Virus record (IMG/VR): IMGVR_UViG_3300021378_000068
Coordinates: 1 to 38,516 of that record
Length of the DNA stretch: 38,516 nt
Reading direction: 5' to 3' (one strand)
Source: a virus
Below, one piece after another: positions 5,583 to 37,110 of this stretch. Numbering within the stretch: position 1 is the stretch's first letter; every line of letters starts with the position of its first letter. Below the pieces are notes generated by a model. The model had not been told where the DNA came from. It worked only from the letters and a program-made list of their open reading frames with translations, and did not search any database. The translations under genes and the position numbers were made by a program.

Positions 5583-5587
5583 GTATG

Positions 5588-5595
5588 TATTTAGT
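5588..5595 (-). promoter_or_regulatory. T4-type late promoter (ACTAAATA)
   Basis: On the minus strand the sequence reads ACTAAATA, then CATAC, then ATG of the 4536-5582 gene. It matches the T4 late core TATAAATA at six of eight positions. With T4-like geometry, transcription would start at or next to the AUG. Confidence 0.7.
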
Positions 5596-5643
5596 TAAAA
5601 ATCATTTACCCAAAAGTATATGCCTAGAGTTTATTTGTGTTAT

Positions 5644-5651
5644 AATAAATA
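5644..5651 (+). promoter_or_regulatory. T4-type late promoter (AATAAATA)
   Basis: AATAAATA lies 23 bases upstream of the ATG at 5675, leaving room for a leader with a Shine-Dalgarno AAAGGA. It is divergent from the late promoter at 5588-5595. It probably also drives the tmRNA gene, for which I see no separate promoter. Confidence 0.6.
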
Positions 5652-5674
5652 CATTCTCACAAAAGGATATGGGT

Positions 5675-6037
5675 ATGAAGATAACAGGAACAAAGTTAGG
5701 TACTACATTAATTATAGCATTTTTTGCAATAATGATTGCTTGCCCGGTAAGTGCAGAGAAATCTGATGAACGACTTATACGTGAGAGTTCTAAAGCATAT
5801 ACAGGGGCAACTCGTATTATTGATGGCAAGATTGTAAAATATCCTCGTCATTATAGTTTACATACACATAAGAAACGTGGTAATTCTATGGTGCACATGG
5901 GTAGTAATGCAATACCTTACTACACTGGGTATGCTAGACATACGTATCATACTGAAGTTAAATACATTAAAGACGATGTAAATGACGCATTAGATACCGC
6001 AATTAAAATTCTAGTAATCAAAGAATTACTAGATTAA
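5675..6037 (+). CDS. Small exported protein, unknown function
   Basis: The start is set at the second of two close ATGs, because AAAGGA lies seven bases before it. An upstream in-frame ATG at 5585 lies inside the divergent promoter region and is rejected. The 120-residue product has a signal peptide: MKITGTK, then a hydrophobic core LIIAFFAIMIA, with a likely cleavage after PVSA. The mature part of about 90 residues is rich in His, Tyr and Lys, with no recognisable domain. It probably goes to the periplasm of the infected cell. The stop codon is almost directly followed by the tmRNA acceptor piece, so the two are probably co-transcribed from the late promoter at 5644. Confidence 0.7.
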   Translation: MKITGTKLGTTLIIAFFAIMIACPVSAEKSDERLIRESSKAYTGATRIIDGKIVKYPRHYSLHTHKKRGNSMVHMGSNAIPYYTGYARHTYHTEVKYIKDDVNDALDTAIKILVIKELLD

Positions 6038-6039
6038 AT

Positions 6040-6283
6040 TATTGTTGTATGAAGTGAAGTAAAAGGCACTTTGGACGCCGGTTCGACTCCGGCCACCTCC
6101 ACCAATAAACAGCAGAGGGGGTGTAAGGGATTCGACAGGGTGATTAGTAACGGAGCAGACAACACAGTAGGCGATGACTGTAAATCAAGCAAACACTATA
6201 ATTGACAACAATTATGAAATGGAAGATTACGCCCTAGCGGCCTAATCCCCCGAGGTCTAAGGTACCTCGTCACCGAACACCCA
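6040..6283 (+). ncRNA. ssrA: Permuted two-piece tmRNA (ssrA) gene
   Basis: The tRNA-like 3' part comes first and the mRNA-like part second, as in alphaproteobacterial permuted tmRNA genes. The acceptor piece (about 6040-6104) ends with a T arm, GCCGG-TTCGACT-CCGGC, then CACCTCC and an encoded ACCA. After a 12-base spacer the coding piece begins with GGGGGTG (6117-6123), which pairs with CACCTCC. This puts a G-U wobble at the third pair, the alanine identity element. GGGATTCGACAGG is the D-arm-like motif of tmRNAs. TGTTGT (6043-6048) can pair with ACAACA (6159-6164) as the joining helix. The tag frame starts at GCA 6189 and ends at TAA 6243-6245, giving ANTIIDNNYEMEDYALAA, with the YALAA degradation signal of proteobacterial tags. 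A stem-loop CGAGGT/ACCTCG follows. The exact ends of the two pieces and the resume codon are inferred. Confidence 0.93.
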
Positions 6284-6305
6284 GAGGGGCATTTATTTGC
6301 CCCTC
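6284..6305 (+). terminator. Hairpin terminator or processing stem after tmRNA
   Basis: GAGGGGCA and TGCCCCTC form a perfect 8-bp stem around a six-base loop TTTATT. The following sequence is not a clean U-run (GCCTATTTCG), so it may act as a 3'-end stabilising stem as much as an intrinsic terminator. Confidence 0.7.
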
Positions 6306-6314
6306 GCCTATTTC

Positions 6315-6322
6315 GATAAATA
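6315..6322 (+). promoter_or_regulatory. T4-type late promoter (GATAAATA)
   Basis: GATAAATA is followed by GATAT and then the ATG at 6328. The five-base gap predicts a leaderless mRNA for the nucleotidyltransferase gene. No Shine-Dalgarno sequence is present in between. Confidence 0.7.
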
Positions 6323-6327
6323 GATAT

Positions 6328-7713
6328 ATGAACATATCTGAACTAGAAAAATTCAAAATCGAAGATGCGATCAACTTCCACGATGAGTTGAATCCTTTGC
6401 TGTTTGATGAAAACAATAAATTGAAGCCAAACATCAAAAAACAATTAGAGATTATTACTGATGACTTTATTGAGTACATGGGTATACCTGATCTTGCAGT
6501 AGAAGATGTAATCATTACTGGTAGTAATGTTGCATTTACTTACACACCTCATTCGGATATTGATCTGCATCTACTTGTAGACTTTGCAGAACTACCAGAG
6601 TCAGATGTTTATAAAGAACTATTCAATGCTAAGAAGTCTTTGTATAATGACACATATGAAATTACTATCAGAGATATTCCTGTTGAAGTTTATGTACAAG
6701 ATACAGCACAATCACATACTAGTTTAGGCGAGTACAGTCTTATGCAAGATAAGTTTACTCGTTTCCCTAGCAAACAAAGAGCAAACTTAGATGAAATATC
6801 AGCAGAACATAAGTTTGAAAGATTAGAACAACTAGCAATCGAAGGATTAAAAGCAAAAGACATTGAAAAAGTAAACAATGTACTATCTATTATTAAAAGA
6901 TACAGACAAGCAGGTTTAGATAATAAAGGAGAGTTTGGTCCTGAAAACTTAGCATTTAAGGCTATCAGATCAAAAGGATACTTTCAAGCATTGTTTGATT
7001 TACGCAACAAGTTAAGAGCCCAACAACTATCTATTGAAGAAGAATTATTAAGAAGAACGTTTGAAGAATCTATTGGTGTCTATAATAGTAAAGTTAATTT
7101 AGCAGAAGATACAGTTGATGCGTTGGCACAAGAACATCATATTTCTTCTAAAGAAGCCGCAAGATATTTAGATAATGCTATCAAAGTAGAAATCTTTATG
7201 AATAAAAAAATAGACGATAGAGAAAAAGCAAAAGAAATTGTAATACCTAATCTTGCAAAAGACATTGAGTATTATGAAAAGATGATAACATTTTTACAAG
7301 CAGTTGAAAGAATAAATCAAGGTGCTATTAATGAAGAATATCAATATGCTTTATATGTTGATGGCAAACCCAATGTTAGAAGTCCAAATGAAGATGAAAT
7401 CAAACAGTATATTAAACATTTAAAATCTCAAGGTCACAAAGGCCCGTTTGATATTAAATACCAAGACTATGGTCCTAAAAGAACATCAACAACGATCGGT
7501 GAAGCATCAGGATACATTCCAAGTGAAGCAGAAAGAAATGATCCAAGATTTTCTAGGGCATTATCTGTAGACGTACACCCAGACACAATGAAGAAAGGTG
7601 CAAAAGCAATGGGACTTGGTGACATTGCACGTGACGGTCGTCCACCACTACTTAGACCGGGCAAAAAGAAAACTAAGAATTCTAAAACTGAATTTGGCAA
7701 AGGCATATATTGA
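6328..7713 (+). CDS. Polymerase-beta-type nucleotidyltransferase with conserved marine-phage C-terminal module
   Basis: The 461-residue protein has a nucleotidyltransferase core near residues 64-116. GSNVAFTYTPHSDIDLHLLV gives the GS motif and the paired carboxylates (DID), and DIPVEVY supplies the third acidic residue. These are the residues that bind Mg-NTP in the pol-beta superfamily, so the enzyme probably transfers a nucleotide to a protein, RNA or small molecule; the target cannot be read. The middle is helical. The C-terminus (about residues 385-450) reads EASGYIPSEAERNDPRF, then VDVHPDTMKKGAKAMGLG and GRPPLLRPGKKK, a module I recognise as recurring in T4-type marine phage proteins of unknown role. 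The start is fixed by the adjoining late promoter. It overlaps the next gene by four bases. Confidence 0.8.
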   Translation: MNISELEKFKIEDAINFHDELNPLLFDENNKLKPNIKKQLEIITDDFIEYMGIPDLAVEDVIITGSNVAFTYTPHSDIDLHLLVDFAELPESDVYKELFNAKKSLYNDTYEITIRDIPVEVYVQDTAQSHTSLGEYSLMQDKFTRFPSKQRANLDEISAEHKFERLEQLAIEGLKAKDIEKVNNVLSIIKRYRQAGLDNKGEFGPENLAFKAIRSKGYFQALFDLRNKLRAQQLSIEEELLRRTFEESIGVYNSKVNLAEDTVDALAQEHHISSKEAARYLDNAIKVEIFMNKKIDDREKAKEIVIPNLAKDIEYYEKMITFLQAVERINQGAINEEYQYALYVDGKPNVRSPNEDEIKQYIKHLKSQGHKGPFDIKYQDYGPKRTSTTIGEASGYIPSEAERNDPRFSRALSVDVHPDTMKKGAKAMGLGDIARDGRPPLLRPGKKKTKNSKTEFGKGIY

Positions 7714-8325: not shown

Positions 8326-8598
8326 ATGAATGAGAAATTCTCTAACGCAATAGAAGCCCGCAAGTATTTGGATTCACTTCAAAAACAAATTCGATCTCTA
8401 TCATTTAATCCTGATATGAGAAAACTTTGGGCTAACATTGTACCCATGGTAGATGAACTGTCTACTATAGAAGTCAGATGCAGACAACGTAACAATTGGC
8501 AAGCCGCTGACGATTATAGAGCAAAAATGCAAGAAAGTTGCGACATGATAGAGAAATATATCTTATTATTAACACTTATGGAACCAGAAGGAAACTAA
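8326..8598 (+). CDS. Small helical protein, unknown
   Basis: The 90-residue product has no recognised domain. It is predicted mostly helical, with many charged residues, and includes RCRQRNNWQAADDYRAK, a pattern common in helical hairpins. It has its own strong promoter whose start point should coincide with the ATG, so it is probably an early, leaderless transcript. An AAGGG sits right before the ATG but would be missing from, or at the very end of, the mRNA. It precedes the MoxR-type ATPase gene, which carries the same promoter class, so a role in that module is possible but unproven. Confidence 0.7.
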   Translation: MNEKFSNAIEARKYLDSLQKQIRSLSFNPDMRKLWANIVPMVDELSTIEVRCRQRNNWQAADDYRAKMQESCDMIEKYILLLTLMEPEGN

Positions 8599-8647
8599 GT
8601 TGTTGAATCATATAGGAAAATTAATTTCAATTATTTTCAAAAAAGAC

Positions 8648-8676
8648 TTGACATCACTACCCAAAGGCTCTATAAT
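8648..8676 (+). promoter_or_regulatory. Early-type promoter with CCCAAA spacer element (copy 2)
   Basis: TTGACA at 8648-8653, a 17-base spacer with CCCAAA at positions 7-12, and TATAAT at 8671-8676. It drives the MoxR-type ATPase gene through a leader of about 30 bases that ends in ACGGAGTTAAAA before ATG. Confidence 0.88.
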
Positions 8677-8713
8677 ATATACATATTCAACAATAAAGTA
8701 ACGGAGTTAAAAA

Positions 8714-9814
8714 ATGTCTCAATTAACTGAAAATCTGACTGTAACAAGTCAACAAGCAAAACCCGCAATTAAAGCCGCAATGTTAGCAGGGCGTCCTTCA
8801 TTCTTATGGGGACCTCCCGGCGTAGGCAAATCTGAACTTGTCGAAGAAATTGCAACTGAAATGGGTAACTGTCTAGTTATCGATTTGCGTATGGCACAGA
8901 TGGAGCCTACTGATATCAGAGGTATCCCTTTCTTCAACAAAGACTTAGGAGTTATGGACTGGGCACCCCCAATCGAACTTCCTTCTGAAGAACTTGCCGC
9001 TCAGTATGACAAAATCATATTGTTCTTAGATGAAATGAATTCGGCTCCCCCAGCAGTTCAGGCTGCAGGTTATCAACTTGTTCTTAATGGACGTGTTGGC
9101 AAGTACATTCTTCCTAAGAACGTACATATTGTAGCCGCAGGTAACAGGGACTCTGACAAAGGTGTCACATATCGTATGCCGATGCCCCTTGCTAATCGTT
9201 TCATTCACTTAGAAATGCGTCCTGACTTTACATCTTGGCAGAACTGGGCTATCGTAAACGAAGTACATGAAGATGTAGTTGGTTACTTGTCATTTGCTAA
9301 ACAAGACTTGTATGATTTTGATGCTAAGTCTTCTAGCAGAGCATTTGCTACTCCTCGTACATGGACTTTTGTTAGTCAATTGTTACAACAGGAAGATATC
9401 GACTCTGATACTCTCTACAATCTCGTAGCAGGTACTGTCGGTGAAGGTCTTGCTACTAAGTTTGTAGCACATCGTAAGATTGCTAGTAAAATGCCTAACC
9501 CATCTGATATCTTATCAGGTAAAGTTAAGGACCTTAATGTTAAGGAAATCTCTGCAATGTATTCTTTGACTATCTCAATGTGCTACGAACTTAAGAATGC
9601 ACTTGAGACTGATAAAGTTGATAATAAGAAGTTCCATGAAATGTGCGATAACTTCTTTGGCTACATCATGGCTAACTTTGAAACAGAGTTAGTGGTCATG
9701 GGTGCAAAAGTTGCACTGAAAACTTACAAACTTCCGATCGAACCTTCTCAGTTGAAAAACTTTGATGACTTTCACAAACGATATGGTGGTTACATTGTTG
9801 AGGCGGGCAACTAG
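8714..9814 (+). CDS. MoxR-type AAA+ ATPase
   Basis: The 366-residue protein has a full AAA+ core: Walker A GPPGVGKSE (residues 33-41), Walker B IILFLDEMN (101-109), a sensor-1 AAGN (141-144) and an arginine-finger-like ANRF. The EMN after Walker B and the DIRGIPFF segment fit the MoxR branch. MoxR proteins act as chaperone-like ATPases that remodel or activate a partner carrying a VWA domain; such a partner is the next gene. The start is supported by a GGAG Shine-Dalgarno sequence. A strong hairpin terminator follows, so it is probably its own transcription unit from the 8648 promoter. The target of the phage pair is unknown. Confidence 0.88.
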   Translation: MSQLTENLTVTSQQAKPAIKAAMLAGRPSFLWGPPGVGKSELVEEIATEMGNCLVIDLRMAQMEPTDIRGIPFFNKDLGVMDWAPPIELPSEELAAQYDKIILFLDEMNSAPPAVQAAGYQLVLNGRVGKYILPKNVHIVAAGNRDSDKGVTYRMPMPLANRFIHLEMRPDFTSWQNWAIVNEVHEDVVGYLSFAKQDLYDFDAKSSSRAFATPRTWTFVSQLLQQEDIDSDTLYNLVAGTVGEGLATKFVAHRKIASKMPNPSDILSGKVKDLNVKEISAMYSLTISMCYELKNALETDKVDNKKFHEMCDNFFGYIMANFETELVVMGAKVALKTYKLPIEPSQLKNFDDFHKRYGGYIVEAGN

Positions 9815-9825
9815 ATTGCTGGCCT

Positions 9826-9873
9826 GGAAGAGTGTAAGTTACGAGACATTCCTTGCACTCTTCCAAACTTTTT
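9826..9873 (+). terminator. Rho-independent terminator after moxR-like gene
   Basis: GGAAGAGTGTAAG (9826-9838) pairs with CTTGCACTCTTCC (9852-9864), a 13-bp stem with one G-U pair, followed by AAACTTTTTA. It separates the ATPase transcript from the next promoter a few bases downstream. Confidence 0.9.
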
Positions 9874-9875
9874 AC

Positions 9876-9904
9876 TTGACTTGTCTCCCCAAAGGTAGTA
9901 TAAT
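9876..9904 (+). promoter_or_regulatory. Early-type promoter with CCCAAA spacer element (copy 3)
   Basis: TTGACT at 9876-9881, a 17-base spacer with CCCAAA at positions 7-12, and TATAAT at 9899-9904. It drives the metallopeptidase/VWA gene through a leader of about 27 bases containing CGGAACTGACACA. Confidence 0.87.
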
Positions 9905-9937
9905 AGATACATACTTTAGACAAACGGAACTGACACA

Positions 9938-11230
9938 ATGACTAAAAATACTAAAACAACTAACAACGACAAAGAGAGCAAACTGGCTCACTTAGTTGGT
10001 CCTACAGACCCTCAAGTAGATGCACAAGCACGTGATCGTTTAATCACTGCCCGTATCGCACTCTTACTCAGACATTCATTCTTTGGCAATCTTGCTACTC
10101 GTTTGACTCTTATTAATGCTGACGAATGGTGCCCGACTGCGGCAACTGATGGTAAGCATTTCTACTACAACTCACGTTTCATTATGATGCTAAAGAAGAA
10201 AGAAGTAGAATTTCTTGTAGCACATGAGGTTCTTCATGTAGTTTATGATCATATGGATCGTAGAGGTGACAGAGATCCTCAACTATGGAACATTGCTGAT
10301 GATTATTGTGTCAATGCAGATTTGAAAAATCACAATGTCGGTGAGTTCATTACGACTGTCCCTTGCTTGTATGACTACAAGTATGACAGAATGTCCGCAG
10401 AGCAAGTATATGACATTCTATATGAGAATGCAGAAGTTATTGACATTGACCAATTGTTAGATCAATTGCTTGATGAACACATGGATGGTGATGCAGGCGC
10501 AGGTGCTGATGGTGATGAAGATGGTGACAAGCCCGGCCCAGTTAAAATGTCTAAAGAAGAAAAAGATTCACTTAAGCAGGAGATGAAAGAAGCAATCATC
10601 AATGCGGCGTCAGGTGCTGAAGCAGGTTCATTACCCAAAGGTGTTGAACGTATGATTAAAGATTTGACTGCACCCGTCATGCCCTGGGACGATATCATTC
10701 AATCTAATCTGACTAGCACAATGAACAATGACTATTCATTCATTAGACCTTCTCGTAGGGGTTGGCATCAGGATGCAATCATGCCAGGTATGACTCCAGG
10801 TGAAATGATTGATGTTGATATCTTTTTAGATATGTCAGGATCGATTGGATCTGAGCAAGGAACCTTTTTCCTTTCAGAGATTCAGGGTATAATGGAAGTA
10901 TTTACTAACTATAAGATTCACGTTCATTGTTTTGATACGTCAGTCTACAATCCCCAGACATTCGACAGTGATAACTTAGATGATATTACTGACTACGAAA
11001 TCTATGGTGGCGGTGGTACTGACTTTGATTGTATCTTTGACTATCTTAAAGAAGAAGGTCGAGTGCCCAATCGTCTAATCGTATTCACAGATGGTTATCC
11101 TTTTGGTAGTTGGGGCGATGAAAACTATTGCGATACTACGTGGATCATTCATGGTGACCCTGAGCCGAATCCCCCTTTCGGTACTTGGGCAATCTATGAC
11201 GAGCATAAACAACATTCACAGGCCGCATGA
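9938..11230 (+). CDS. Metallopeptidase-like/VWA protein (DUF2201-type), MoxR partner
   Basis: The 430-residue protein has a zincin-like N-terminal half with HEVLH at residues 96-100 (HExxH; the Glu is the general base). NIADDYCVNADL follows about 18 residues later. A linker rich in Asp, Gly and Glu (about 170-210) leads to a C-terminal von Willebrand A domain. Its MIDAS motif DMSGS lies near residue 298, with GGGGTDFD and FTDGYPFGSW further on. This order matches the DUF2201 metallopeptidase-like plus VWA architecture that pairs with MoxR ATPases. Whether it still cleaves peptides cannot be judged; in cellular relatives the HExxH may be structural. It has its own promoter of the same class as the ATPase, which suggests matched early expression. 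It overlaps the next gene by ATGA. Confidence 0.87.
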   Translation: MTKNTKTTNNDKESKLAHLVGPTDPQVDAQARDRLITARIALLLRHSFFGNLATRLTLINADEWCPTAATDGKHFYYNSRFIMMLKKKEVEFLVAHEVLHVVYDHMDRRGDRDPQLWNIADDYCVNADLKNHNVGEFITTVPCLYDYKYDRMSAEQVYDILYENAEVIDIDQLLDQLLDEHMDGDAGAGADGDEDGDKPGPVKMSKEEKDSLKQEMKEAIINAASGAEAGSLPKGVERMIKDLTAPVMPWDDIIQSNLTSTMNNDYSFIRPSRRGWHQDAIMPGMTPGEMIDVDIFLDMSGSIGSEQGTFFLSEIQGIMEVFTNYKIHVHCFDTSVYNPQTFDSDNLDDITDYEIYGGGGTDFDCIFDYLKEEGRVPNRLIVFTDGYPFGSWGDENYCDTTWIIHGDPEPNPPFGTWAIYDEHKQHSQAA

Positions 11231-13157: not shown

Positions 13158-13838
13158 TTGAAAGTCAAACTCATAAGTTATAGTCAATCACCAAATGCAT
13201 CGTTAGGCGATATAGAAAGTCCACTAGATTTAGTAGCCTATTGTGCTAGAGTCAGTAACCCATCAAATCAAAACAATACAGCAACAAACGAAAAACTTGT
13301 TAAGTATCTAATGAAACATAAACATTGGTCACCACTTGAAATGGTATCAGCATGTTTAGAGATTGAAACTACCCGTGACATTGCTAGACAGATTTTACGT
13401 CATAGATCATTCTCGTTCCAAGAGTTTAGTCAACGATATGCAGATCCAACTAAAGACTTAGACTTTGAAGTACGTGAAGCAAGACTACAAGACCCTAAGA
13501 ACAGACAGAACAGTATTAAACTTGATCCTGAAATGGATGGACATGCAGTACTTCAAGGTGAATGGAAAAACAAGCAACAACGAGTTATTGATGCTTCAGT
13601 AGAGGCATATAATTGGGCTGTAAGCAAAGGTATTGCTAAAGAACAAGCAAGAGCAGTATTACCAGAAGGAAACACTGTAAGTAGAATGTATGTAAACGGT
13701 ACCTTACGCAGTTGGGTTCATTATATCGAACTCAGAGCGGCAAACGGTACGCAGTTAGAACATATTGAAATTGCTAAAGAAGTAGCAAAAGTGATCGCAG
13801 AGATTTTCCCAATCAGTTTGCAAAATGAATCTGCATAA
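13158..13838 (+). CDS. thyX: Flavin-dependent thymidylate synthase ThyX
   Basis: ThyX methylates dUMP to dTMP using FAD, NADPH and methylene-tetrahydrofolate, feeding phage DNA synthesis. The signature RHR-x7-S is exact (R81-H-R and S91 in RHRSFSFQEFSQR). The length of 226 residues fits the family. The start is TTG at 13158 with AAGGA upstream. Other family features include the early HKHWSPLEM segment and ARAVLPEGN near residue 170. Marine T4-type phages commonly carry thyX in place of the T4 td gene. It is followed closely by a small unknown gene and the epimerase. Confidence 0.95.
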   Translation: MKVKLISYSQSPNASLGDIESPLDLVAYCARVSNPSNQNNTATNEKLVKYLMKHKHWSPLEMVSACLEIETTRDIARQILRHRSFSFQEFSQRYADPTKDLDFEVREARLQDPKNRQNSIKLDPEMDGHAVLQGEWKNKQQRVIDASVEAYNWAVSKGIAKEQARAVLPEGNTVSRMYVNGTLRSWVHYIELRAANGTQLEHIEIAKEVAKVIAEIFPISLQNESA

Positions 13839-13844
13839 CATATA

Positions 13845-14111
13845 ATGATAAAGATGAAAGAAGAACATGAAGCCAATGAAATAGATGTGCATGAAATACT
13901 TATGGGCGATGTAGAAGACCCTGATTTAATGATTGCCGCCCCTATATATGAATGGCAACAAACAGATGCAGGGAAATACATTATGGAACATAGTGATCCA
14001 ACTGCTAAGTGGGTAAGAAGTAATTCTCCTTCATACATGGGACATAAATACACGATTAAAGGGTATCTCACAGATAAGCAAGTGACATATTTTAAATTAA
14101 AATACGAGTAA
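13845..14111 (+). CDS. Hypothetical protein, 88 aa
   Basis: It starts at ATG 13845 (or 13854 in the same frame), six bases after thyX stops; neither start has a good ribosome site, so coupling to thyX is likely. It is acidic at the N-terminus (HEILMGDVEDPDLMIAAP) and carries YEWQQTDAGKYIMEHS, which hints at a small compact fold. No family is recognised. Confidence 0.65.
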   Translation: MIKMKEEHEANEIDVHEILMGDVEDPDLMIAAPIYEWQQTDAGKYIMEHSDPTAKWVRSNSPSYMGHKYTIKGYLTDKQVTYFKLKYE

Positions 14112-14114
14112 ACT

Positions 14115-15257
14115 ATGGCATCAAAGAAAAAACAAAAAGTTTTAGTTACCGGCGGTCTTGGATTCATCGGATCCCATGTTGTAGTTAAATTAATTAACGA
14201 AGGGCATGACGTTGCTGTTATCGATAACAAAACTAATTATGGTATTATAGATCAAACAGAACTTGATGCAGTTATGCAAGAAAGATTTTTTGGTATTGCA
14301 AACAGAATGACTGATGCGATTGATTTAAATATCTATACAATTGATGTTGCTAATCCTGAACTAAAAACTTTGTTTGAAAAAGAAAAGTTTGATAGTGTCA
14401 TTCATCTTGCAAGTTTCCCAAGACAGAAAGTAGTCAATGCTGATCCAACACAAGGTTCTAAAGTAATGAGTGAAGGCTTGTTAAACTTATTAGAACTAAG
14501 CAGACAAACAAAAGTAAAACGATTTACTTATATCAGTTCTTCTATGGTCTATGGAGACTTCACAGACAACGTAGAAGAATGGGAAGACTGTAACCCACAA
14601 GGTCAGTATGCAATTATGAAGTATGCTGGAGAGTTGTTAGTACAAGATTATACTAGACAATACGGATTAGAGCATACGATTATTCGTCCTAGTGCTGTTT
14701 ACGGACCCTTAGATGTTTGTGATAGAGTTATTTCTAAATTCTTTTACAATGCAATCAAAGGTGAAAAGTTAATCGTCAATGGTAAGATGGAGAAACTTGA
14801 TTTCACGTTTGTTAATGATCTTGCAGTTGGTATTGTACAAGCAAATCAATCTCTAAAAGCAATAAATGAGACATATAATCTTACAAGATCAAAGGGCGTA
14901 ACTCTTTATGATGCCGCACAATCAGTTAAAGATATTGTAGGTAAAGGTAACATTGAAGTTAAACAAAAAGATAAAGACTTTCCAAGTCGAGGTGCTTTGA
15001 GTATTCAGAAAGCACAAGATGATTTTGATTACAGTCCTGAAATGAATTTGAATGAAGGTCTAATGATTTACTATCATTGGTTTCTTAATTCTAAGTATTG
15101 GCAAGAACACTTTAATCCAAAACCTAAAGAAGTTAAAGTTGCCCCAGCAAAAGTTGCTAATGTTTCTAAAACAAAAGTAAAAACAAAAGCAAAACCTAAA
15201 GCAAAACCTAAAGCAAAACCTAGAGCAAAAGCAAAGCCAAAACCGAAGGCAAAATGA
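14115..15257 (+). CDS. NAD-dependent sugar epimerase/dehydratase with lysine-proline tail
   Basis: This is an extended short-chain dehydrogenase. The NAD-binding motif is GGLGFIGSH (13-21), the catalytic Tyr-Lys pair YAIMK is at 165-169, and SSSMVYGD precedes it. IIRPSAVYGP and a late DFTFVNDLA are family marks. It should act on a nucleotide sugar, epimerising or dehydrating it; the exact sugar cannot be read. Unusually, the last 45 residues form a low-complexity basic tail of KAKPKAKP units with no counterpart in normal epimerases. The gene overlaps the radical SAM gene by ATGA and heads a five-gene surface or sugar modification block. Confidence 0.85.
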   Translation: MASKKKQKVLVTGGLGFIGSHVVVKLINEGHDVAVIDNKTNYGIIDQTELDAVMQERFFGIANRMTDAIDLNIYTIDVANPELKTLFEKEKFDSVIHLASFPRQKVVNADPTQGSKVMSEGLLNLLELSRQTKVKRFTYISSSMVYGDFTDNVEEWEDCNPQGQYAIMKYAGELLVQDYTRQYGLEHTIIRPSAVYGPLDVCDRVISKFFYNAIKGEKLIVNGKMEKLDFTFVNDLAVGIVQANQSLKAINETYNLTRSKGVTLYDAAQSVKDIVGKGNIEVKQKDKDFPSRGALSIQKAQDDFDYSPEMNLNEGLMIYYHWFLNSKYWQEHFNPKPKEVKVAPAKVANVSKTKVKTKAKPKAKPKAKPRAKAKPKPKAK

Positions 15258-16468
15258 CCGAGTCGTTTTGTGTTTTACCTTGGGTAAATATCACAGTTGA
15301 TCCTGACGGGGCAATCAAGCCTTGTTGTATTTCACATGACTATATTAAAAAAGAAGATGGCACTAAGTTTAACTTAGGTTATGATTCTGTCGATGACATT
15401 TACAACAGTAAAGAATATGTCGAACTAAGACAAAAGATGTTAGATAATGAATACATACCTGGTTGCGATGTATGTTATCACAATGAAAAAACAGGACGTC
15501 AAAGTCGTAGACTTATTAATAATGAACAATACAAAGAAACTATTCCCACTAGTAGTGAAAGCAATTTAAAAATCAAATTCTTTGACTTACGTTTTGGTAA
15601 TCTATGTAATCTTAAATGTAGAATGTGTAGTCCTGCAAACAGCAATCAAATTGCAAAAGAAATCACAGAGATAAACAACAAAGAATATTCTAAGTTCTAT
15701 CCTGTATTTGATATCGATACTGATGAATGGTGGGAGACAGATACGTTTGATGATAATATCAAAAGTCAAGTAGATAATATAGACACAATTTATATGACTG
15801 GTGGAGAGCCTACTGTTATTGAAAAGAACTTTGAAATACTAAGGGACTTAATAGAATTAGATAAAAGTAAACACATTACATTAATTATTAATACAAATCT
15901 TACAAATACAAATCCAAGATTCTATCAATATCTACCTAACTTTAAATCAGTTATACTACAACTAAGTATCGATGGTTATGAGAAAGTACAAGAGTATCTA
16001 AGATATCCTAGCAAATTTAAACAGATCGATGAAAGCATACACAAACTTATAAAAATTCATAATGTTAAACTGTGGGCGACTCCTGTTATTCAGATAGGAA
16101 ATTTAAACACAATAGTTGATTTGTTTAAATACTTTGAAGACATTAACATTAAAGAAAACAAACCTTTAATTGATATTAGACCGATCTTATTGCAAGATCC
16201 ACAACACTTAAATATCGATTATTTACCTAAAGACTTTAAACAGAAAGCCTTTGCAAAAATCTTTATGTGGATGCTAAACGATTGTAAATGGCAATCACAG
16301 ATTTTTAAAGATACGATAAATGCATTGAAAGTAAAATGCCAAGAAGAAAGTAAAGACATAAACATGTTACAAGAATACATTAAGTTTAATAATATATTAG
16401 ATGAACACAGAGGACAAACATTAATAGATTGTAATGAAGAATTACATACACTATTAATGAACAATTAG
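15254..16468 (+). CDS. Radical SAM protein with auxiliary cysteine (twitch/SPASM-like) region
   Basis: The 404-residue enzyme has the radical SAM cluster CNLKCRMC (C118, C122, C125) and the SAM-binding TGGEPT motif about 55 residues later. A further cysteine set precedes the core: FCVLPW with C6, KPCC at 24-25 and CDVC at 71-74. This is a SPASM/twitch-like region that may hold an auxiliary iron-sulfur cluster, here at the N-terminus rather than the usual C-terminus. The reaction is unknown. Its position between a sugar epimerase and a methyltransferase/aminotransferase pair suggests modification of a sugar or peptide on the virion or host surface. Confidence 0.85.
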   Translation: MTESFCVLPWVNITVDPDGAIKPCCISHDYIKKEDGTKFNLGYDSVDDIYNSKEYVELRQKMLDNEYIPGCDVCYHNEKTGRQSRRLINNEQYKETIPTSSESNLKIKFFDLRFGNLCNLKCRMCSPANSNQIAKEITEINNKEYSKFYPVFDIDTDEWWETDTFDDNIKSQVDNIDTIYMTGGEPTVIEKNFEILRDLIELDKSKHITLIINTNLTNTNPRFYQYLPNFKSVILQLSIDGYEKVQEYLRYPSKFKQIDESIHKLIKIHNVKLWATPVIQIGNLNTIVDLFKYFEDINIKENKPLIDIRPILLQDPQHLNIDYLPKDFKQKAFAKIFMWMLNDCKWQSQIFKDTINALKVKCQEESKDINMLQEYIKFNNILDEHRGQTLIDCNEELHTLLMNN

Positions 16469-16470
16469 TT

Positions 16471-17145
16471 ATGACACAAAAACCATCATCGTTTGACCGT
16501 GTTAAATCAATATTGATGCAAGAAGTAAATTGGGCCCATATTGGTTTTAGTAAAAACAATAATAAAATATTAAAAGAATTGTATCAATTTTGGGCAGAAA
16601 GATACGATGAAGAAATGCCTACAATAGATTATAACTATACAGAGCCTATGAAGGAAGCATTTTTAAAATCTAATATTAAAACTGATTCCAAGATATTAGA
16701 TGCCGCATGTGGCACAGGGTACCCTACAATGGCATTATATGAAATGGGCTATAAGAATTTGCATGGTATAGATTTTTCTTCAGAGATGATACAAGAAGCA
16801 AAAAAGAAAAACATATACAAAAGTTTGACAGTAGCCGATTTAATTAATCCTATAGACTTTGCAACAGACACGTTTGATGTCATTATGTGTGTAGGGTTTT
16901 TAGCAAGTGGTCATATGGGAAGTGAACCACTAGATGAATTTATCAGAGTAATAAAACCAGGAGGACATTTGATTTGTTCTATAGGTGTAAACATATTTGA
17001 TACTGATGGGTTCGATAAAAAATTACAACAACTACAAGATGACAACATCATTCAGATAGATCATGTATCAGAACCTTTTGTAGTAGTACCCAAAGCAAAG
17101 TTTGGTAGTGCTAAATCTAAAATGTGGTCTCTTAAAATAACATGA
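16471..17145 (+). CDS. Class I SAM-dependent methyltransferase
   Basis: Motif I ILDAACGTGYP (about residues 70-80) binds S-adenosylmethionine, followed by NLHGIDFSSEMIQEA with the acidic ribose-binding residue and FDVIMCVGFL as the post-motif strand. At 224 residues it is close to the small-molecule methyltransferase norm. No target domain is visible. It sits two bases after the radical SAM gene and overlaps the aminotransferase by ATGA, so it works within the same modification operon. A sugar or lipid-linked substrate is likely, by context only. Confidence 0.85.
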   Translation: MTQKPSSFDRVKSILMQEVNWAHIGFSKNNNKILKELYQFWAERYDEEMPTIDYNYTEPMKEAFLKSNIKTDSKILDAACGTGYPTMALYEMGYKNLHGIDFSSEMIQEAKKKNIYKSLTVADLINPIDFATDTFDVIMCVGFLASGHMGSEPLDEFIRVIKPGGHLICSIGVNIFDTDGFDKKLQQLQDDNIIQIDHVSEPFVVVPKAKFGSAKSKMWSLKIT

Positions 17146-18251
17146 TTAAGTATTTTGGATTAGACAGACAATATATACAACTGAAAGATGAATTGCTTGA
17201 TGCAACTGATTCAGTATTATCCAGTGGTAGTCTTAATGACGGTGTATATGCACAGAAGTTTAAAGATTGGTTATCAATAAAAACTAAAGCACATTATGTA
17301 ATACTCTGTCATAGTGGAACACAAGCATTAGAAATCATTGCTCGTTATGAAAGAGATACATCTCCAGACCAAGACCCTTATGCAGAATGGGAATACGATA
17401 AAGAAACATATAGAACAATCAGAGTTCCTAATCTAACTTACCCTGCATCAATGAATGCATTTCTAAGTGCTGGACTTAATGTTGAACTAGCAGATACAGA
17501 TAGAAACGGTCTTTTGTTACCACAAGATGAAAATGAATTACAGAAGATTGAATGTCATGTAGGACTATTTGGAGCACCAACTGTAGCAGTAGAGAGTGAC
17601 AATGGTATTGCAGTATTAAACAATAACATTGCGATTGTAGACGGAGCACAACATTGGTTAATAGCAGACGGCAACATAGGCACTGCAATGGCAATTAGTT
17701 TTGATCCTACTAAAAATTTAAATGCTTCGGGTAATGGTGGAGCCATCGTTACAAACAATCAAGCACTATATGAATTTGCTAATCAATGGAGAGACAACGG
17801 TAAGCCTCATCATTTTTATTCTGGTACTAACAGTAAGATGAGTGAATTAGATTGTTCTCATTTATTAGTTAGAGCAAACTACATCGATGAATGGCAAGAA
17901 CGTAGAAAAGAAATTAGAAAATATTACATAGATCGATTTGATTATATTCGACCAATAAGATGTTTAAGTAAAGATTTTGAAACTCATGCTGATTCAAAGT
18001 TTGTAATCGATGTGGGGGCAGAACGTAATGAGTTAAAGCAATGGCTAGATAATAGAAATGTACAAACTAGAATACATTATGAACTACCATTAAGTGAATT
18101 ACCGATTGCGGATAATTTAACAAAACCTACGTTAATGTCTACTAGTAGTTTGGTAACAAGATCGTTTATAAGTCTCCCTTTGTATCCTGAAATGACTGAT
18201 GCAGAAATAGAAACAGTGGCAAACGAAGTTTGTCAATACTACGAGCCCTAA
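17142..18251 (+). CDS. DegT/DnrJ/EryC1/StrS-type PLP aminotransferase
   Basis: The 369-residue protein matches the sugar aminotransferase family. CHSGTQALEI is the phosphate-binding loop, DGAQHW contains the PLP-contacting Asp, and SFDPTKNLNASGNGG carries the PLP Lys (K191). The family transfers an amino group from glutamate to a keto-sugar nucleotide, so with the upstream epimerase/dehydratase it could make an amino sugar. The insert of about 25 residues near 66-90 (RDTSPDQDPYAEWEYDKETY) is unusual. Its stop codon overlaps the late promoter of the next gene. Confidence 0.87.
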   Translation: MIKYFGLDRQYIQLKDELLDATDSVLSSGSLNDGVYAQKFKDWLSIKTKAHYVILCHSGTQALEIIARYERDTSPDQDPYAEWEYDKETYRTIRVPNLTYPASMNAFLSAGLNVELADTDRNGLLLPQDENELQKIECHVGLFGAPTVAVESDNGIAVLNNNIAIVDGAQHWLIADGNIGTAMAISFDPTKNLNASGNGGAIVTNNQALYEFANQWRDNGKPHHFYSGTNSKMSELDCSHLLVRANYIDEWQERRKEIRKYYIDRFDYIRPIRCLSKDFETHADSKFVIDVGAERNELKQWLDNRNVQTRIHYELPLSELPIADNLTKPTLMSTSSLVTRSFISLPLYPEMTDAEIETVANEVCQYYEP

Positions 18252-23291: not shown

Positions 23292-24854
23292 ATGAGCAAC
23301 TTTAACACAAGTGGTACTGGCGAATTAGTCAAACCAGCATATAAGAAAACGCATTATAAAAATCAAAAAGAACTTGATGATTTTGTTAAGTGTTGTGATC
23401 CTGATACTGGTTACTTGTACTTCATGGATAATTTCTTTTATATACAGCATCCAACACAAGGTTCAATTCAATATCATCCTTATGAATACCAAGAACGTTT
23501 AATCAGTACATATCATAACTATAGATACTCTATTGCATTGATGCCTAGACAGTCAGGTAAGTCTACATCAGCCGCAGGTTATCTATTATGGTATGCAATG
23601 TTCGTATCTGATGCTACTATTCTAATTGCCGCACATAAGTACACAGGTTCACAAGAGATTATGCAACGTATTAGATATGCATATGAAAATTGTCCTAATC
23701 ATATTAAAGCAGGTGTCACTACCTATAACAAAGGCTCTTTAGATTTTGAGAATGGCTCTCGTATTGTGTCAGCAACGACTACAGAGAATACGGGTCGTGG
23801 TATGTCTATCACACTTCTATACTTAGATGAGTTTGCATTCGTAAGACCTACGATTGCAGAGCAGTTTTGGACTTCTATTACACCAACACTAGCAACAGGT
23901 GGTAAAGCAATCATCACATCTACTCCGAACTCTGACGAAGATCAGTTCGCATTGATTTGGAAAGGCGCAAACAAAAATATTGATGCACAAGGAGAAGAAA
24001 CAGAACTAGGTGTAAACGGATTTAAACCGTTTAGATCATATTGGAACGAACAACCAGGACGTGATGAAGCATGGGCAGAAGAAATTAAAGCCCAGTTAGG
24101 TGATGACAGATTTGCACGTGAGATTGGGTGTGAATTCTTAATTGCTGATGAAACATTAATCAATCCTAATACTCTTATCATGTTAGAATCAGTTGAACCT
24201 GTAAATAGAATGGGTCAAGTACGATGGTTTCAAACTCCTAAGAAAGGTATGGTCTATGTCTTGGGACTAGATCCGTCACTAGGTACTGGAGGAGATCCAG
24301 CCGCTATACAAATCTTTGAAGCAAACACTACTACTCAAATAGGAGAATGGAAAGATAATAAAACTGACATTCCTCAACAGATTAAGTTACTAGGACAGAT
24401 TACACAACATATAGCAGAACAAACAGGAGAACCAAACAGTATATATTACTCACTAGAAAACAATTCAATTGGAGAAGCCGCACTTATATCACTGTCAGAG
24501 TATGGAGAAGCAAACATTCAAGGTATCTTTTTAAGTGAAAAGGGTAAAAAACGTAGAGGATATAACACAACACAAAAAGTAAAACTTGCGGCCTGTGCTA
24601 AGATGAAAACATTGATGGAAAGCAAGAAAATGAATGTTAAAAGTAAAGCATTGATCAGTGAATTAAAAACATTTGTAGCATCTGGTGGCAGTTACGCCGC
24701 TAAGATTGGTGACAACGATGACTTAGTAATGGCTACATTACTTGTAGTACGTATATTACAAGACATTACAGACTTCCATAGTGATTTGACAGAGCATATG
24801 CGTGACCATGATGAAATGGTTGCACCCTTGCCGTTCTTTGCTGTGATTAGTTAA
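23292..24854 (+). CDS. 17: Large terminase subunit (gp17-type)
   Basis: The packaging motor ATPase-nuclease that pumps DNA into the prohead. The Walker A is MPRQSGKST (residues 84-92), Walker B is LLYLDE (175-180) and STPN is the coupling motif. The nuclease domain begins with GLDPSLGTGGD, which carries the first catalytic Asp, and ends with GDNDDLVMA. The length of 520 residues is shorter than T4 gp17 (610), mainly at the N-terminus. The late promoter directly abuts the ATG, and no ribosome site exists. No small terminase gene is adjacent. Confidence 0.95.
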   Translation: MSNFNTSGTGELVKPAYKKTHYKNQKELDDFVKCCDPDTGYLYFMDNFFYIQHPTQGSIQYHPYEYQERLISTYHNYRYSIALMPRQSGKSTSAAGYLLWYAMFVSDATILIAAHKYTGSQEIMQRIRYAYENCPNHIKAGVTTYNKGSLDFENGSRIVSATTTENTGRGMSITLLYLDEFAFVRPTIAEQFWTSITPTLATGGKAIITSTPNSDEDQFALIWKGANKNIDAQGEETELGVNGFKPFRSYWNEQPGRDEAWAEEIKAQLGDDRFAREIGCEFLIADETLINPNTLIMLESVEPVNRMGQVRWFQTPKKGMVYVLGLDPSLGTGGDPAAIQIFEANTTTQIGEWKDNKTDIPQQIKLLGQITQHIAEQTGEPNSIYYSLENNSIGEAALISLSEYGEANIQGIFLSEKGKKRRGYNTTQKVKLAACAKMKTLMESKKMNVKSKALISELKTFVASGGSYAAKIGDNDDLVMATLLVVRILQDITDFHSDLTEHMRDHDEMVAPLPFFAVIS

Positions 24855-34735: not shown

Positions 34736-35737
34736 ATGGCCAGTCTAGCAGACATACGTGCCCGTCTCGCGGCACAAGAAAATAAATCATCTGGATCTAA
34801 GTATCCAACATCTGACGGAGCGATATTCCCTCATTGGAAAATGGACGAAGGAGCATCTTGCTCACTACGTTTCTTACCCGATGCGGATCCAAACAATTCG
34901 TTCTTTTGGATAGAGAGACAAGTTATTAAACTTCCGTTTAATGGCGTGAAAGGTGATCCAAATGTGAGACAAGTAACAGTTCAAGTACCGTGCGTAGAAA
35001 TGTTCGGTGAGAACTGTCCCGTACTTGCAGAAGTTCGTCCTTGGTACAAAGACGAAACTCTAAAAGAAATGGCGAACAAATATTGGAAGAAACGTTCATA
35101 CATCTTTCAAGGCTTTGTACGTCAAAACCCAATTGGGGAAGACAACACCCCTGCGAATCCTATTCGTAGATTTGTTATTTCGCCTCAAATCTTTCAAACT
35201 ATCAAAAGTTCATTGATGGATCCAGAGATCGAAGAATTGCCAACTGACTTAATGCGTGGTCTTGATTTTAATATCAGAAAAACTACGAAAGGTCAGTATG
35301 CTGATTATTCAACATCTTCATGGTCCAGAAAAGAATCTGCTCTAACTGATGTAGAACAAGCGGCTATTGAAGCAAATGGTCTATTCAACTTAGCAGACTT
35401 CTTACCTAAGAAGCCAAGTGAGTCAGAGTTACGTGTCATTAAAGAAATGTTCGAGGCATCAGTAGATGGTCGTCCATATGATGCTGACAAGTTCGGTGCT
35501 TACTATCGTCCATTCGGCGTAGATGCACCCGCGACTGCTGATACAAAAGTAGATGAATCAACTTCAAGTGCTTCGGCGCCCGCAGTTGAGACACCTGCCC
35601 CAGTTGCTACACCCGCAGTTGAAACAGCACCCGCTGTAGAAACTCCAGTAGCGGCTCCAGCAGAAACATCTGAACCATCTAGTGATAAAGCACAAGACAT
35701 TCTAGCAATGATTCGTGCAAGACAAAACAATTCGTAA
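34736..35737 (+). CDS. 32: ssDNA-binding protein gp32
   Basis: The protein coats single-stranded DNA in replication, recombination and repair. At 333 residues it is close to T4 gp32 (301). The N-terminus SLADIRARLAAQ is the basic segment used for cooperative binding. The core has SCSLRFLPDADPNNSFFWIE, VPCVEMFGENCPVL and YIFQGFVRQNPIGEDN, which fit the T4-type OB fold. Two of the usual metal-binding cysteines are visible. The tail (about 265-320) is a Pro/Ala/Glu/Thr linker ending DKAQDILAMIRARQNN, the likely partner-protein site. The ribosome site AAAGGAG is strong. It lies upstream of uvsX and uvsY. Confidence 0.9.
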   Translation: MASLADIRARLAAQENKSSGSKYPTSDGAIFPHWKMDEGASCSLRFLPDADPNNSFFWIERQVIKLPFNGVKGDPNVRQVTVQVPCVEMFGENCPVLAEVRPWYKDETLKEMANKYWKKRSYIFQGFVRQNPIGEDNTPANPIRRFVISPQIFQTIKSSLMDPEIEELPTDLMRGLDFNIRKTTKGQYADYSTSSWSRKESALTDVEQAAIEANGLFNLADFLPKKPSESELRVIKEMFEASVDGRPYDADKFGAYYRPFGVDAPATADTKVDESTSSASAPAVETPAPVATPAVETAPAVETPVAAPAETSEPSSDKAQDILAMIRARQNNS

Positions 35738-36033: not shown

Positions 36034-37110
36034 GTGGCAAAACCATTTGACGTTTCCAAATTTAGGAAAGACATAACCAAATCTATCGACGGCTTGTCTA
36101 TAGGTTTCAACGATCCAACTGATTGGATCTCAACAGGTTCTTATGCATTGAACTATCTTATCTCAGGAGACTTTAATAAAGGTGTTCCTCTAGGTAAAGT
36201 AACAGTCTTTGCAGGAGAATCAGGCGCAGGTAAATCATACTTTGCCGCAGGCAACATTGTAAAAGCGGCACAAGATCAAGGTATCTTTGTAGTCTTAATT
36301 GACACAGAGAACGCACTTGATGAAGCATGGCTACAAGCATTACAAGTTGACACTTCAGAAGAAAAACTTCTTAAGTTAAGCATGAGTATGATTGACGATG
36401 TAGCAAAAACTATATCAACCTTTATGAAAGATTATAAAGACATGGCAGACGAAGAACGTCCTAAAGTGTTATTTGTAATTGACTCATTGGGTATGATGTT
36501 GACACCAACTGATGTTGATCAATTCGACAAAGGTGATATGAAAGGTGACATGGGTCGTAAGCCCAAGGCACTGACATCATTAGTCAGAAACTCTGTTAAC
36601 ATGTTCGGAAGTTATAACGTTGGACTTGTTGCAACTAATCATACATATGCATCACAAGATATGTTTGACCCAGATGATAAAATATCAGGCGGTCAAGGCT
36701 TTATCTATGCATCAAGTATTGTTGTAGCAATGAAGAAGATGAAACTGAAAGAAGATGCGGCAGGGAATAAAATCTCTGAAGTAAAAGGTATTCGTGCAGG
36801 CTGTAAAGTAATGAAGACTCGTTATGCAAAACCTTTCGAGGGTGTGCAAGTGAAGATTCCTTATGAAACAGGTATGAATCCTTATTCAGGTCTTGTTGAC
36901 TTGTTTGAGAAATCAGGCTTGTTAACTAAGCAAGGTAATCGTTTAAAATATATCTCACAATCTGGCGAAGAAGTTCTCAAGTTTAGAAAGCCTTGGGAAG
37001 CAAACGAAGATGGTTGTTTAGATAATCTTATGATAGAATACTCTGAAGTTAAAGATGCAATGGATAAAGTAAATACTGAGGACGATGCATTAGAGACAGT
37101 AGAGGAATAG
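36034..37110 (+). CDS. uvsX: UvsX recombinase
   Basis: RecA-type strand-exchange protein of T4-like phages. The start is GTG at 36034 after AGGAG. Walker A is GESGAGKSY (about 61-69), Walker B is VLFVIDSLGM (about 146-155), and the ISTGSYALNYLISGDF segment and NHTYASQDMFDPDD are typical of UvsX. At 358 residues it is close to T4 UvsX (391). The last 20 residues are acidic, as in RecA family tails. gp32 and UvsY, both present, are its partners in filament assembly. Confidence 0.95.
   Translation: MAKPFDVSKFRKDITKSIDGLSIGFNDPTDWISTGSYALNYLISGDFNKGVPLGKVTVFAGESGAGKSYFAAGNIVKAAQDQGIFVVLIDTENALDEAWLQALQVDTSEEKLLKLSMSMIDDVAKTISTFMKDYKDMADEERPKVLFVIDSLGMMLTPTDVDQFDKGDMKGDMGRKPKALTSLVRNSVNMFGSYNVGLVATNHTYASQDMFDPDDKISGGQGFIYASSIVVAMKKMKLKEDAAGNKISEVKGIRAGCKVMKTRYAKPFEGVQVKIPYETGMNPYSGLVDLFEKSGLLTKQGNRLKYISQSGEEVLKFRKPWEANEDGCLDNLMIEYSEVKDAMDKVNTEDDALETVEE

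Follow-up and report, generated by a model that had tools for sequence, protein, structure and literature searches.

A circularly permuted tmRNA gene of betaproteobacterial type in a contig very probably from a T4-superfamily jumbo phage

The rescue of stalled ribosomes is important to most bacteria, and the reason why some phages bring a tmRNA of their own is apparently not settled. The locus described here raises this question in a concrete form, namely whether the gene is intact, whether it belongs to the phage, and what it would do during infection. It lies in the IMG/VR virus record IMGVR_UViG_3300021378_000068, the whole 38,516 bases of which are called the window; all coordinates are those of the full window. 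An earlier note on this DNA had described a complete circularly permuted tmRNA with alanine identity features, and this description is upheld by covariance model scores, by ARAGORN and by the pairing of 12 aligned sequences.

Identity and anatomy of the tmRNA gene

Positions 6043-6308 on the plus strand are confirmed as a circularly permuted (two-piece) tmRNA gene. In searches with Infernal and Rfam, the general permuted model (RF04321, tmRNA_permuted) matched 6043-6245 (+) with 133.2 bits against a cut-off of 47 (E 4.2e-26), and beta_tmRNA (RF01850) matched 5968-6308 (+) with 117 bits against a cut-off of 84 (E 3.5e-35); ARAGORN likewise returned a permuted tmRNA, with the tag DNNYEMEDYALAA. 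The gene is thus of the betaproteobacterial type. The alpha_tmRNA model (RF01849), which had been put forward as the proper test, proved to be the wrong one, as its 43.4 bits fall short of the cut-off of 50, and the alpha family was ruled out. The cyanobacterial type (RF01851) was absent among the window matches at or above the gathering threshold once overlapping weaker matches of the same clan were set aside, and no Rfam family beyond tmRNA_permuted and beta_tmRNA, riboswitches included, matched the window at its own cut-off.

The sequence, ARAGORN and the Rfam alignments agree on the permuted order, in which the acceptor piece comes first and is followed by the CCA, a spacer and then the coding piece, with the joining helix present (Table 1). 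The acceptor-first order, encoded CCA, G3-U70 pair, T arm and joining helix listed in the earlier note are all found in the window sequence, and the ends it had named, 6104 and 6117, agree with the CCA end and the start of the coding piece as we read them. G3-U70, formed here by G6119 and U6098, is U-G in 12 of 12 aligned sequences and never varies; the alanine identity element is therefore present, and from established tmRNA biology it would direct charging with alanine. In the beta_tmRNA consensus the first ∼49 positions lack pairing and resemble a bacterial promoter; here they lie within the upstream ORF, and for this reason we take the window RNA to begin near 6043.

Table 1. Features of the tmRNA locus and of the genes used to place the contig (window coordinates)
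Feature	Position	Strand	Evidence and remarks
Upstream ORF	5585..6037	+	Maybe a small exported protein; true start may be further in
Acceptor piece (3' part of tRNA-like domain), CCA at 6102-6104	6043..6104	+	RF04321 and RF01850 alignments, ARAGORN; mature 5' end approximate
Joining helix UGUUG, acceptor-piece strand, with CAACA 6160-6164	6043..6047	+	4 of 5 pairs changed on both sides, 98.3% of cells paired
Helix CACUUUG with CAGGGUG 6136-6142	6067..6073	+	5 of 7 pairs changed on both sides, 98.8% of cells paired
T arm GCCGG-UUCGACU-CCGGC	6077..6093	+	Sequence; 100% of cells paired in 12 sequences, 2 pairs changed on both sides
Acceptor stem, 3' strand, partner 6117-6123	6094..6100	+	U-G at G3-U70 in 12/12; 2 other pairs change on both sides
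Spacer between pieces, 12 bases, predicted to be removed by processing	6105..6116	+	Sequence; length varies in relatives
Coding piece (5' part of tRNA-like domain, tag frame, 3' hairpin), from G6117	6117..6308	+	RF01850 match to 6308; 3' end approximate
Tag frame DNNYEMEDYALAA, resume codon GAC 6204, stop TAA 6243-6245	6204..6245	+	ARAGORN; codon comparison in 8 sequences
3' hairpin AGGGGCA-UUUAUU-UGCCCCU	6285..6304	+	94.7% of cells paired, 5 of 7 pairs changed on both sides
TAAATA, late-promoter-like motif at -11 of next gene	6317..6322	+	Enriched before gene starts
Putative polymerase-beta-type nucleotidyltransferase (GSN...SDIDLH)	6328..7713	+	Weak Pfam PF01909 match in 38 of 39 aligned members; outside the tmRNA
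Terminase large subunit (terL)	23292..24854	+	terL comparison, which places the contig very probably among jumbo phages
UvsX/RecA-like recombinase	36034..37110	+	Protein matches; preceded by gp32-like gene 34736-35737

Conservation of the structure was assessed by scoring seven helices, with 40 pairs written from the window, on 12 tmRNAs: the window, nine relatives of the same group, one tmRNA from a Stenotrophomonas phage and one from a Pandoraea plasmid, the latter being the only bacterial tmRNA compared. Left out of this alignment were L005 (cut by the contig end), L366 (alpha type), L368 (long spacer), the tmRNA of phage Phosso (L158) and L377. Across the 12 sequences 95.1% of the cells are paired, and 22 of the 40 pairs show changes on both sides. 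Neither value was reached in any of 500 shuffles, a comparison inflated by the relatedness of the sequences, and slid partners paired in only 45-54%, a control that retains relatedness but favors a structure taken from one sequence. The folding energy of the window tmRNA is unremarkable (z -1.80, with 9 of 200 shuffles folding at least equally well), and in one four-pair helix of RF04321 three of the window's pairs are non-standard, as are two or three in the relatives compared. Judged from its sequence, the window tmRNA is real and well preserved, and it is very probably functional.

The tag reading frame

The tag predicted by ARAGORN has 13 residues and ends in ALAA. The YALAA end that had been noticed before stands, but the length of 18 residues given with it does not, as L002 and L004 miss one base between the start of the 18-residue frame and the resume codon; because the longer frame needs this base, only the 13-residue reading holds across the relatives. 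The resume codon in L002 and L004 is GGC. In eight sequences compared codon by codon, all differences in the last eight tag codons (MEDYALAA) are synonymous and fall on four of them (GAT/GAC, GCC/GCA, CTA/TTA and GCG/GCT), and the differences in the codons before them change residues; the purely synonymous variation of the MEDYALAA codons suggests that the peptide itself matters. The frame thus closes on an ALAA end that is conserved in the relatives and would act as a proteolysis signal.

Among 154 distinct permuted tmRNAs analyzed with ARAGORN, the loci of which were collected through tmRNA patterns or through kinship with the window phage and so do not give unbiased frequencies, the tags start with A in 132 and with D or G in 10, the window's group included, and end in LAA in 119. 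The latter count and the synonymous changes bear on the idea that the RNA is chiefly a competitor, which would take SmpB, EF-Tu or AlaRS from the host tmRNA and so damp or redirect host trans-translation, like the RNA of mycobacteriophage DS6A. The DS6A RNA has little beyond a tRNA-like domain and no tag, and tmRNA is inhibited by a molecule of this sort, which may act by titrating SmpB (PMC4131195, PMC11915505); the want of an SmpB match in 13 phage records would also suit such a role. A competitor needs no reading frame, yet here both the frame and its ALAA end are conserved with synonymous changes, and LAA-ending tags prevail in the gathered loci, so that we regard it as improbable that competition is what the RNA is for.

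The scarcity of D or G starts speaks to a different idea, that the divergent tag, with its D/G resume codon and EDYALAA end, alters the fate of tagged proteins during infection, for example the speed of their degradation or the binding of an adaptor. The window subclade does retain the D/G start together with the conserved MEDYALAA end. On the other hand, related jumbo phages carry tags such as ANDSVYALAA at a similar place, tags that are also found in other IMG/VR contigs, and D resume codons occur in annotated Streptomyces phage tmRNAs as well (DNSNVAFALAA). A special fate for the tagged proteins therefore seems unlikely to us, if less so than competition. As a separate observation, long tags of 24-31 residues recur in IMG/VR tmRNA contigs, for example ANADTFDFSAMSFTGNTVRGAANESRFALAA, the commoner length being 10-14.

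The phage, its relatives and the gene neighborhood

The genes around the tmRNA indicate that the window is very probably a piece of a T4-superfamily jumbo phage. This assignment follows from the relatives of the terminase and of UvsX, from gene order and from a longer contig. The best named matches of the terminase are those of Sinorhizobium phage Phosso (49% identity), PA5oct-like Pseudomonas phages (48.5%) and GAP32 (42.5%), and UvsX is 67% identical to the UvsX of Phosso and to that of Vibrio phage 2.275.O. The window and the annotated GAP32, CBB and XbC2 have terL, a structural gene, a gp32-like gene and UvsX in this order, with a minus-strand gene block between the structural gene and gp32 in the window, and a terminase 80% identical to that of the window, whose own record is 38.5 kb, is encoded in a 335-kb IMG/VR contig. 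The label of T4-type phage given in the earlier note is thus loosely right (gp32, UvsX, T4-like terminase), with jumbo phages as the nearest named relatives. Elsewhere in the window, 13158-18251 holds matches to thymidylate synthase, nucleotide-sugar epimerase, radical SAM, methyltransferase and aminotransferase proteins, perhaps for sugar or nucleotide modification, and 8326-11230 holds an ATPase gene followed by a DUF2201 gene (putative metallopeptidase plus VWA-like).

Relatives of the locus were reached by two routes. The gene downstream of the tmRNA was found in six related viral contigs at 58-80% identity, and all six carry the tmRNA, five of them complete and one (L005) ended by the contig within it; beta_tmRNA scores in L002, L003, L004, L006 and L007 range from 106.9 to 130.4 bits. 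By the terL route, which took the best 80 of 399 terL relatives (78-98% identity) and examined 29 records, mostly the longer ones, a permuted tmRNA above cut-off was present in 10 of the 29, ∼14-22 kb upstream of terL in distances measured by hand. Where the examined record extends 22 kb or more upstream of terL, six of seven have the tmRNA; no permuted tmRNA was found upstream of terL in G018 (25 kb available) or G023 (18 kb). In the 335-kb contig the tmRNA lies ∼10 kb upstream of terL. Much of this jumbo-phage lineage therefore carries a two-piece tmRNA. The shared phage neighbors, in the six contigs and in the 10 terL-related records, also bear out that the tmRNA sits in phage DNA and that the window is no host chimera at this point. 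They weigh heavily against a non-functional passenger, be it carried host DNA, the remnant of a prophage attachment site or an artifact of assembly. Genomic islands often integrate in tmRNA genes (PMC11915505), yet this gene is complete, with pair changes on both sides and a conserved tag, separate contigs share its phage neighbors, and no integrase was matched among the 33 distinct window proteins searched, which leaves a passenger very improbable.

The type of the gene differs within the lineage. The beta model is above its cut-off in the window, L002-L004, L006, L007, L359, L360, L363 and L377, L367 and L368 are above cut-off for the general permuted model only, and the tmRNA of L366 is of the alpha type (78.2 bits against a cut-off of 50). 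As L366 has the usual distance to terL and so presents an alpha-type gene at the corresponding place, replacement between types is suggested. In L368 (record G027, 1074-1668) a 133-residue ORF at 1148-1549 fills most of a long permuted-tmRNA spacer. A gene within the spacer as a general feature was considered and dropped, since of the six homologues of this ORF outside L368, which belong to related phages, five loci were searched (L375 was left out) and none had a tmRNA match.

Among isolated phages, the DNA of the tmRNA region finds a match over 70 bases only. This nearest named match (80% identity) is Stenotrophomonas phage Marzo (MZ326868, Menderavirus), the record of which annotates a tmRNA. 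In a search of nine named phages, permuted tmRNAs were found in Marzo and Phosso; none was seen in the other seven under stricter filters, which lose weak matches, and the one-piece model gave below-cut-off matches only in the same nine. The Stenotrophomonas phages resemble the window in having a beta-type permuted tmRNA (94.6 bits for beta_tmRNA in Marzo), but Marzo is a ∼160-kb phage with its tmRNA amid tRNA genes and the tag VAANDDSYTVRIAA by ARAGORN. Phosso (PV764938), the jumbo relative, has a permuted tmRNA of 113.3 bits, which differs from that of the window in being of the alpha type (108 bits), in its spacer of ∼400 bases and in a T loop without UUCGA. It is on the strand opposite to terL and ∼45 kb away from it, and hence not at the window's place. 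The Phosso gene, at PV764938.1 349596-350198 (-) (L158 297-899 (-)), is unannotated, and ARAGORN finds none there.

IMG/VR scans with two tmRNA patterns gave at least 120 stretches each, and of 238 tmRNA-pattern loci among the matches listed, in contigs that may include host DNA, ARAGORN called 130 as permuted and 51 as one-piece tmRNAs. The rarity of phage tmRNAs asserted in the earlier note is not supported by these numbers, with at least 130 permuted IMG/VR loci by ARAGORN, nor by the report of two-piece tmRNAs in aquatic phages (PMC9004378). That source, by Buchholz et al., describes the two-piece tmRNA of Methylophilales phage Melnitz, reported in 2022, and its tally of 133 unique structures of phage tmRNA includes 53 in two pieces, of which 50 came from marine or aquatic samples (PMC9004378). 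Two-piece tmRNAs in aquatic phages were thus already known, and the window is a further example. Melnitz is alike in being an aquatic myophage with a permuted tmRNA, but it is pelagimyophage-related, and its gene is of the alphaproteobacterial type and accompanied by a glutamine riboswitch (PMC9004378), whereas the window has the beta type in a probable jumbo phage, no riboswitch matched, and a different tag. Among jumbo phages, a tmRNA is annotated in the Sinorhizobium phage AP-J-162 (PMC11242549), and tmRNAs are likewise in print for huge phages, there also with SmpB (PMC7162821), in contrast to the 13 records here. Earlier phage tmRNAs are listed in 'Ends of the line for tmRNA-SmpB' (PMC4131195), and the tmRNA database update, the source of RF04321, includes 79 bacteriophage sequences (PMC11915505). 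Within the partial coverage of our literature search there was no report of beta-type tmRNAs as a feature of a jumbo-phage lineage. Three points are new here: a two-piece tmRNA is largely retained across a jumbo-phage lineage, one relative has an alpha-type gene in the corresponding position, and the tag resumes on a D/G codon.

The gene downstream of the tmRNA encodes the putative nucleotidyltransferase. A permuted tmRNA called by ARAGORN precedes it on the same strand in 42 of 80 loci. For 37 of the other 38 records, a tmRNA lies up to ∼3.3 kb upstream in 9, far away in 5 and is lacking in 23; the remaining locus (L389) has a partial tmRNA at the contig end, on the contig of L005. With a profile built from 42 of the 80 sequences, we checked the 92 permuted-tmRNA pattern loci with at least 2 kb downstream and found the nucleotidyltransferase in one, of the same clade; in the 335-kb contig the two genes are >100 kb apart. 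On these two grounds a functional coupling of tmRNA and nucleotidyltransferase was rejected, and we read their adjacency as a gene order common to one phage lineage. The protein, encoded beside or close to the tmRNA across much of the lineage, has an invariant GS...SDxDLH and relatives in cyanophages, Lak phages and Maribacter phages; the alignment behind the Pfam count in Table 1 comprised the window and 38 loci. Its structure model (mean pLDDT 81.2) gave weak nucleotidyltransferase matches, the best with E 2.6e-4 and TM-scores of at most 0.3 in the first ten; a single-sequence model was poor (pLDDT 42.6), and a profile comparison with solved structures matched only DpnI (E 0.25).

Proposed function and expression

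We consider it probable that the window tmRNA is a functional, phage-owned, beta-type two-piece gene that works as an ordinary alanine-charged tmRNA with host factors. Relying on established tmRNA biology for transcription, processing, charging, tagging and timing, we infer the following course. A precursor would be transcribed from the plus strand and cut by host tRNA-processing RNases at the CCA (6104) and at G6117, leaving two pieces that would be held together by the acceptor stem, the helix 6067-6073/6136-6142 and the joining helix. Host AlaRS would charge the RNA through G3-U70, and host SmpB and EF-Tu would deliver it to stalled ribosomes, where translation would resume at GAC 6204 and add DNNYEMEDYALAA, the ALAA end of which would mark the product for ClpXP-type proteolysis. 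The phage would thereby gain extra rescue capacity in infection, while mRNAs are being broken.

Dependence on host SmpB is suggested by the 13 phage records, in which no SmpB match was found; 11 of them are IMG/VR contigs and maybe fragments, and Phosso and Marzo were deposited as complete. The beta type gives a weak hint of a betaproteobacterial host, weak because the Stenotrophomonas phages carry this type too and Stenotrophomonas is not a betaproteobacterium. Two scans of bacterial genome contigs, one with 31 exact bases of the acceptor piece and one for an encoded CCA with near-exact bases flanking the spacer, gave zero matches, a result that says little. A lineage that mostly retains the tmRNA at one place, with varied tags and at least one alpha version, offers natural variants for testing the match between phage and host tmRNA, and part of this question is testable with Phosso, an isolated relative with its own tmRNA and Sinorhizobium meliloti as host.

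The expression of the gene was approached through a short motif before gene starts. TAAATA occurs within 14 bases before the ATG in 5 of 32 window genes (those starting with ATG among 36 ORFs hand-picked from 55) against 4 of 1,687 other ATGs, and the corresponding figures for three sets of related loci are 8 of 41 against 3 of 2,451, 12 of 50 against 10 of 2,235, and 6 of 37 against 7 of 1,576. The motif resembles the T4-like late promoter sequence TATAAAT (PMC9004378). It stands at exactly -11 in 21 of the 26 TAAATA sites of the related-locus sets. The late promoter of T4-like phages is centered near -10, so that if TAAATA is such a promoter, transcription would start at or near the ATG and the late mRNAs would be leaderless. 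In the window the motif is found at 6317, 18252, 23281, 24861 and 5593 (-), 10-11 bases before ATGs that include that of terL, and it recurs in related loci.

Before the tmRNA itself, inspected in 12 members, the placement of the motif varies. TAAATA stands at -14 in L006, L007 and L363, at -11 in L366, at -21 in L359 and at -38 in L367, and TAAATT at -11 in L360 and at -8 in L004 and the window, which has no TAAATA directly before its tmRNA; in L002, L003 and L368 TAAAT is absent from the preceding 45 bases. In some members the late-promoter-like motif is so placed that transcription would start near the acceptor piece. Given this variation, some members may plausibly be transcribed late, and read-through from an upstream start is equally likely for the window, where sigma-70-like matches are no more frequent than by chance. 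For the Melnitz tmRNA, early expression was postulated by its authors (PMC9004378). It is possible rather than probable that the lineage as a whole keeps its tmRNA in the late program upstream of terL, swapping alpha and beta types with its hosts while the tag diverges (D/G start, EDYALAA end), and so runs a trans-translation of its own with host SmpB. A second sequence element, TTGAC...CCCAAA...TATAAT, precedes in similar form the ATPase gene, the DUF2201 gene and the ORF at 8326, and perhaps marks an early promoter class.
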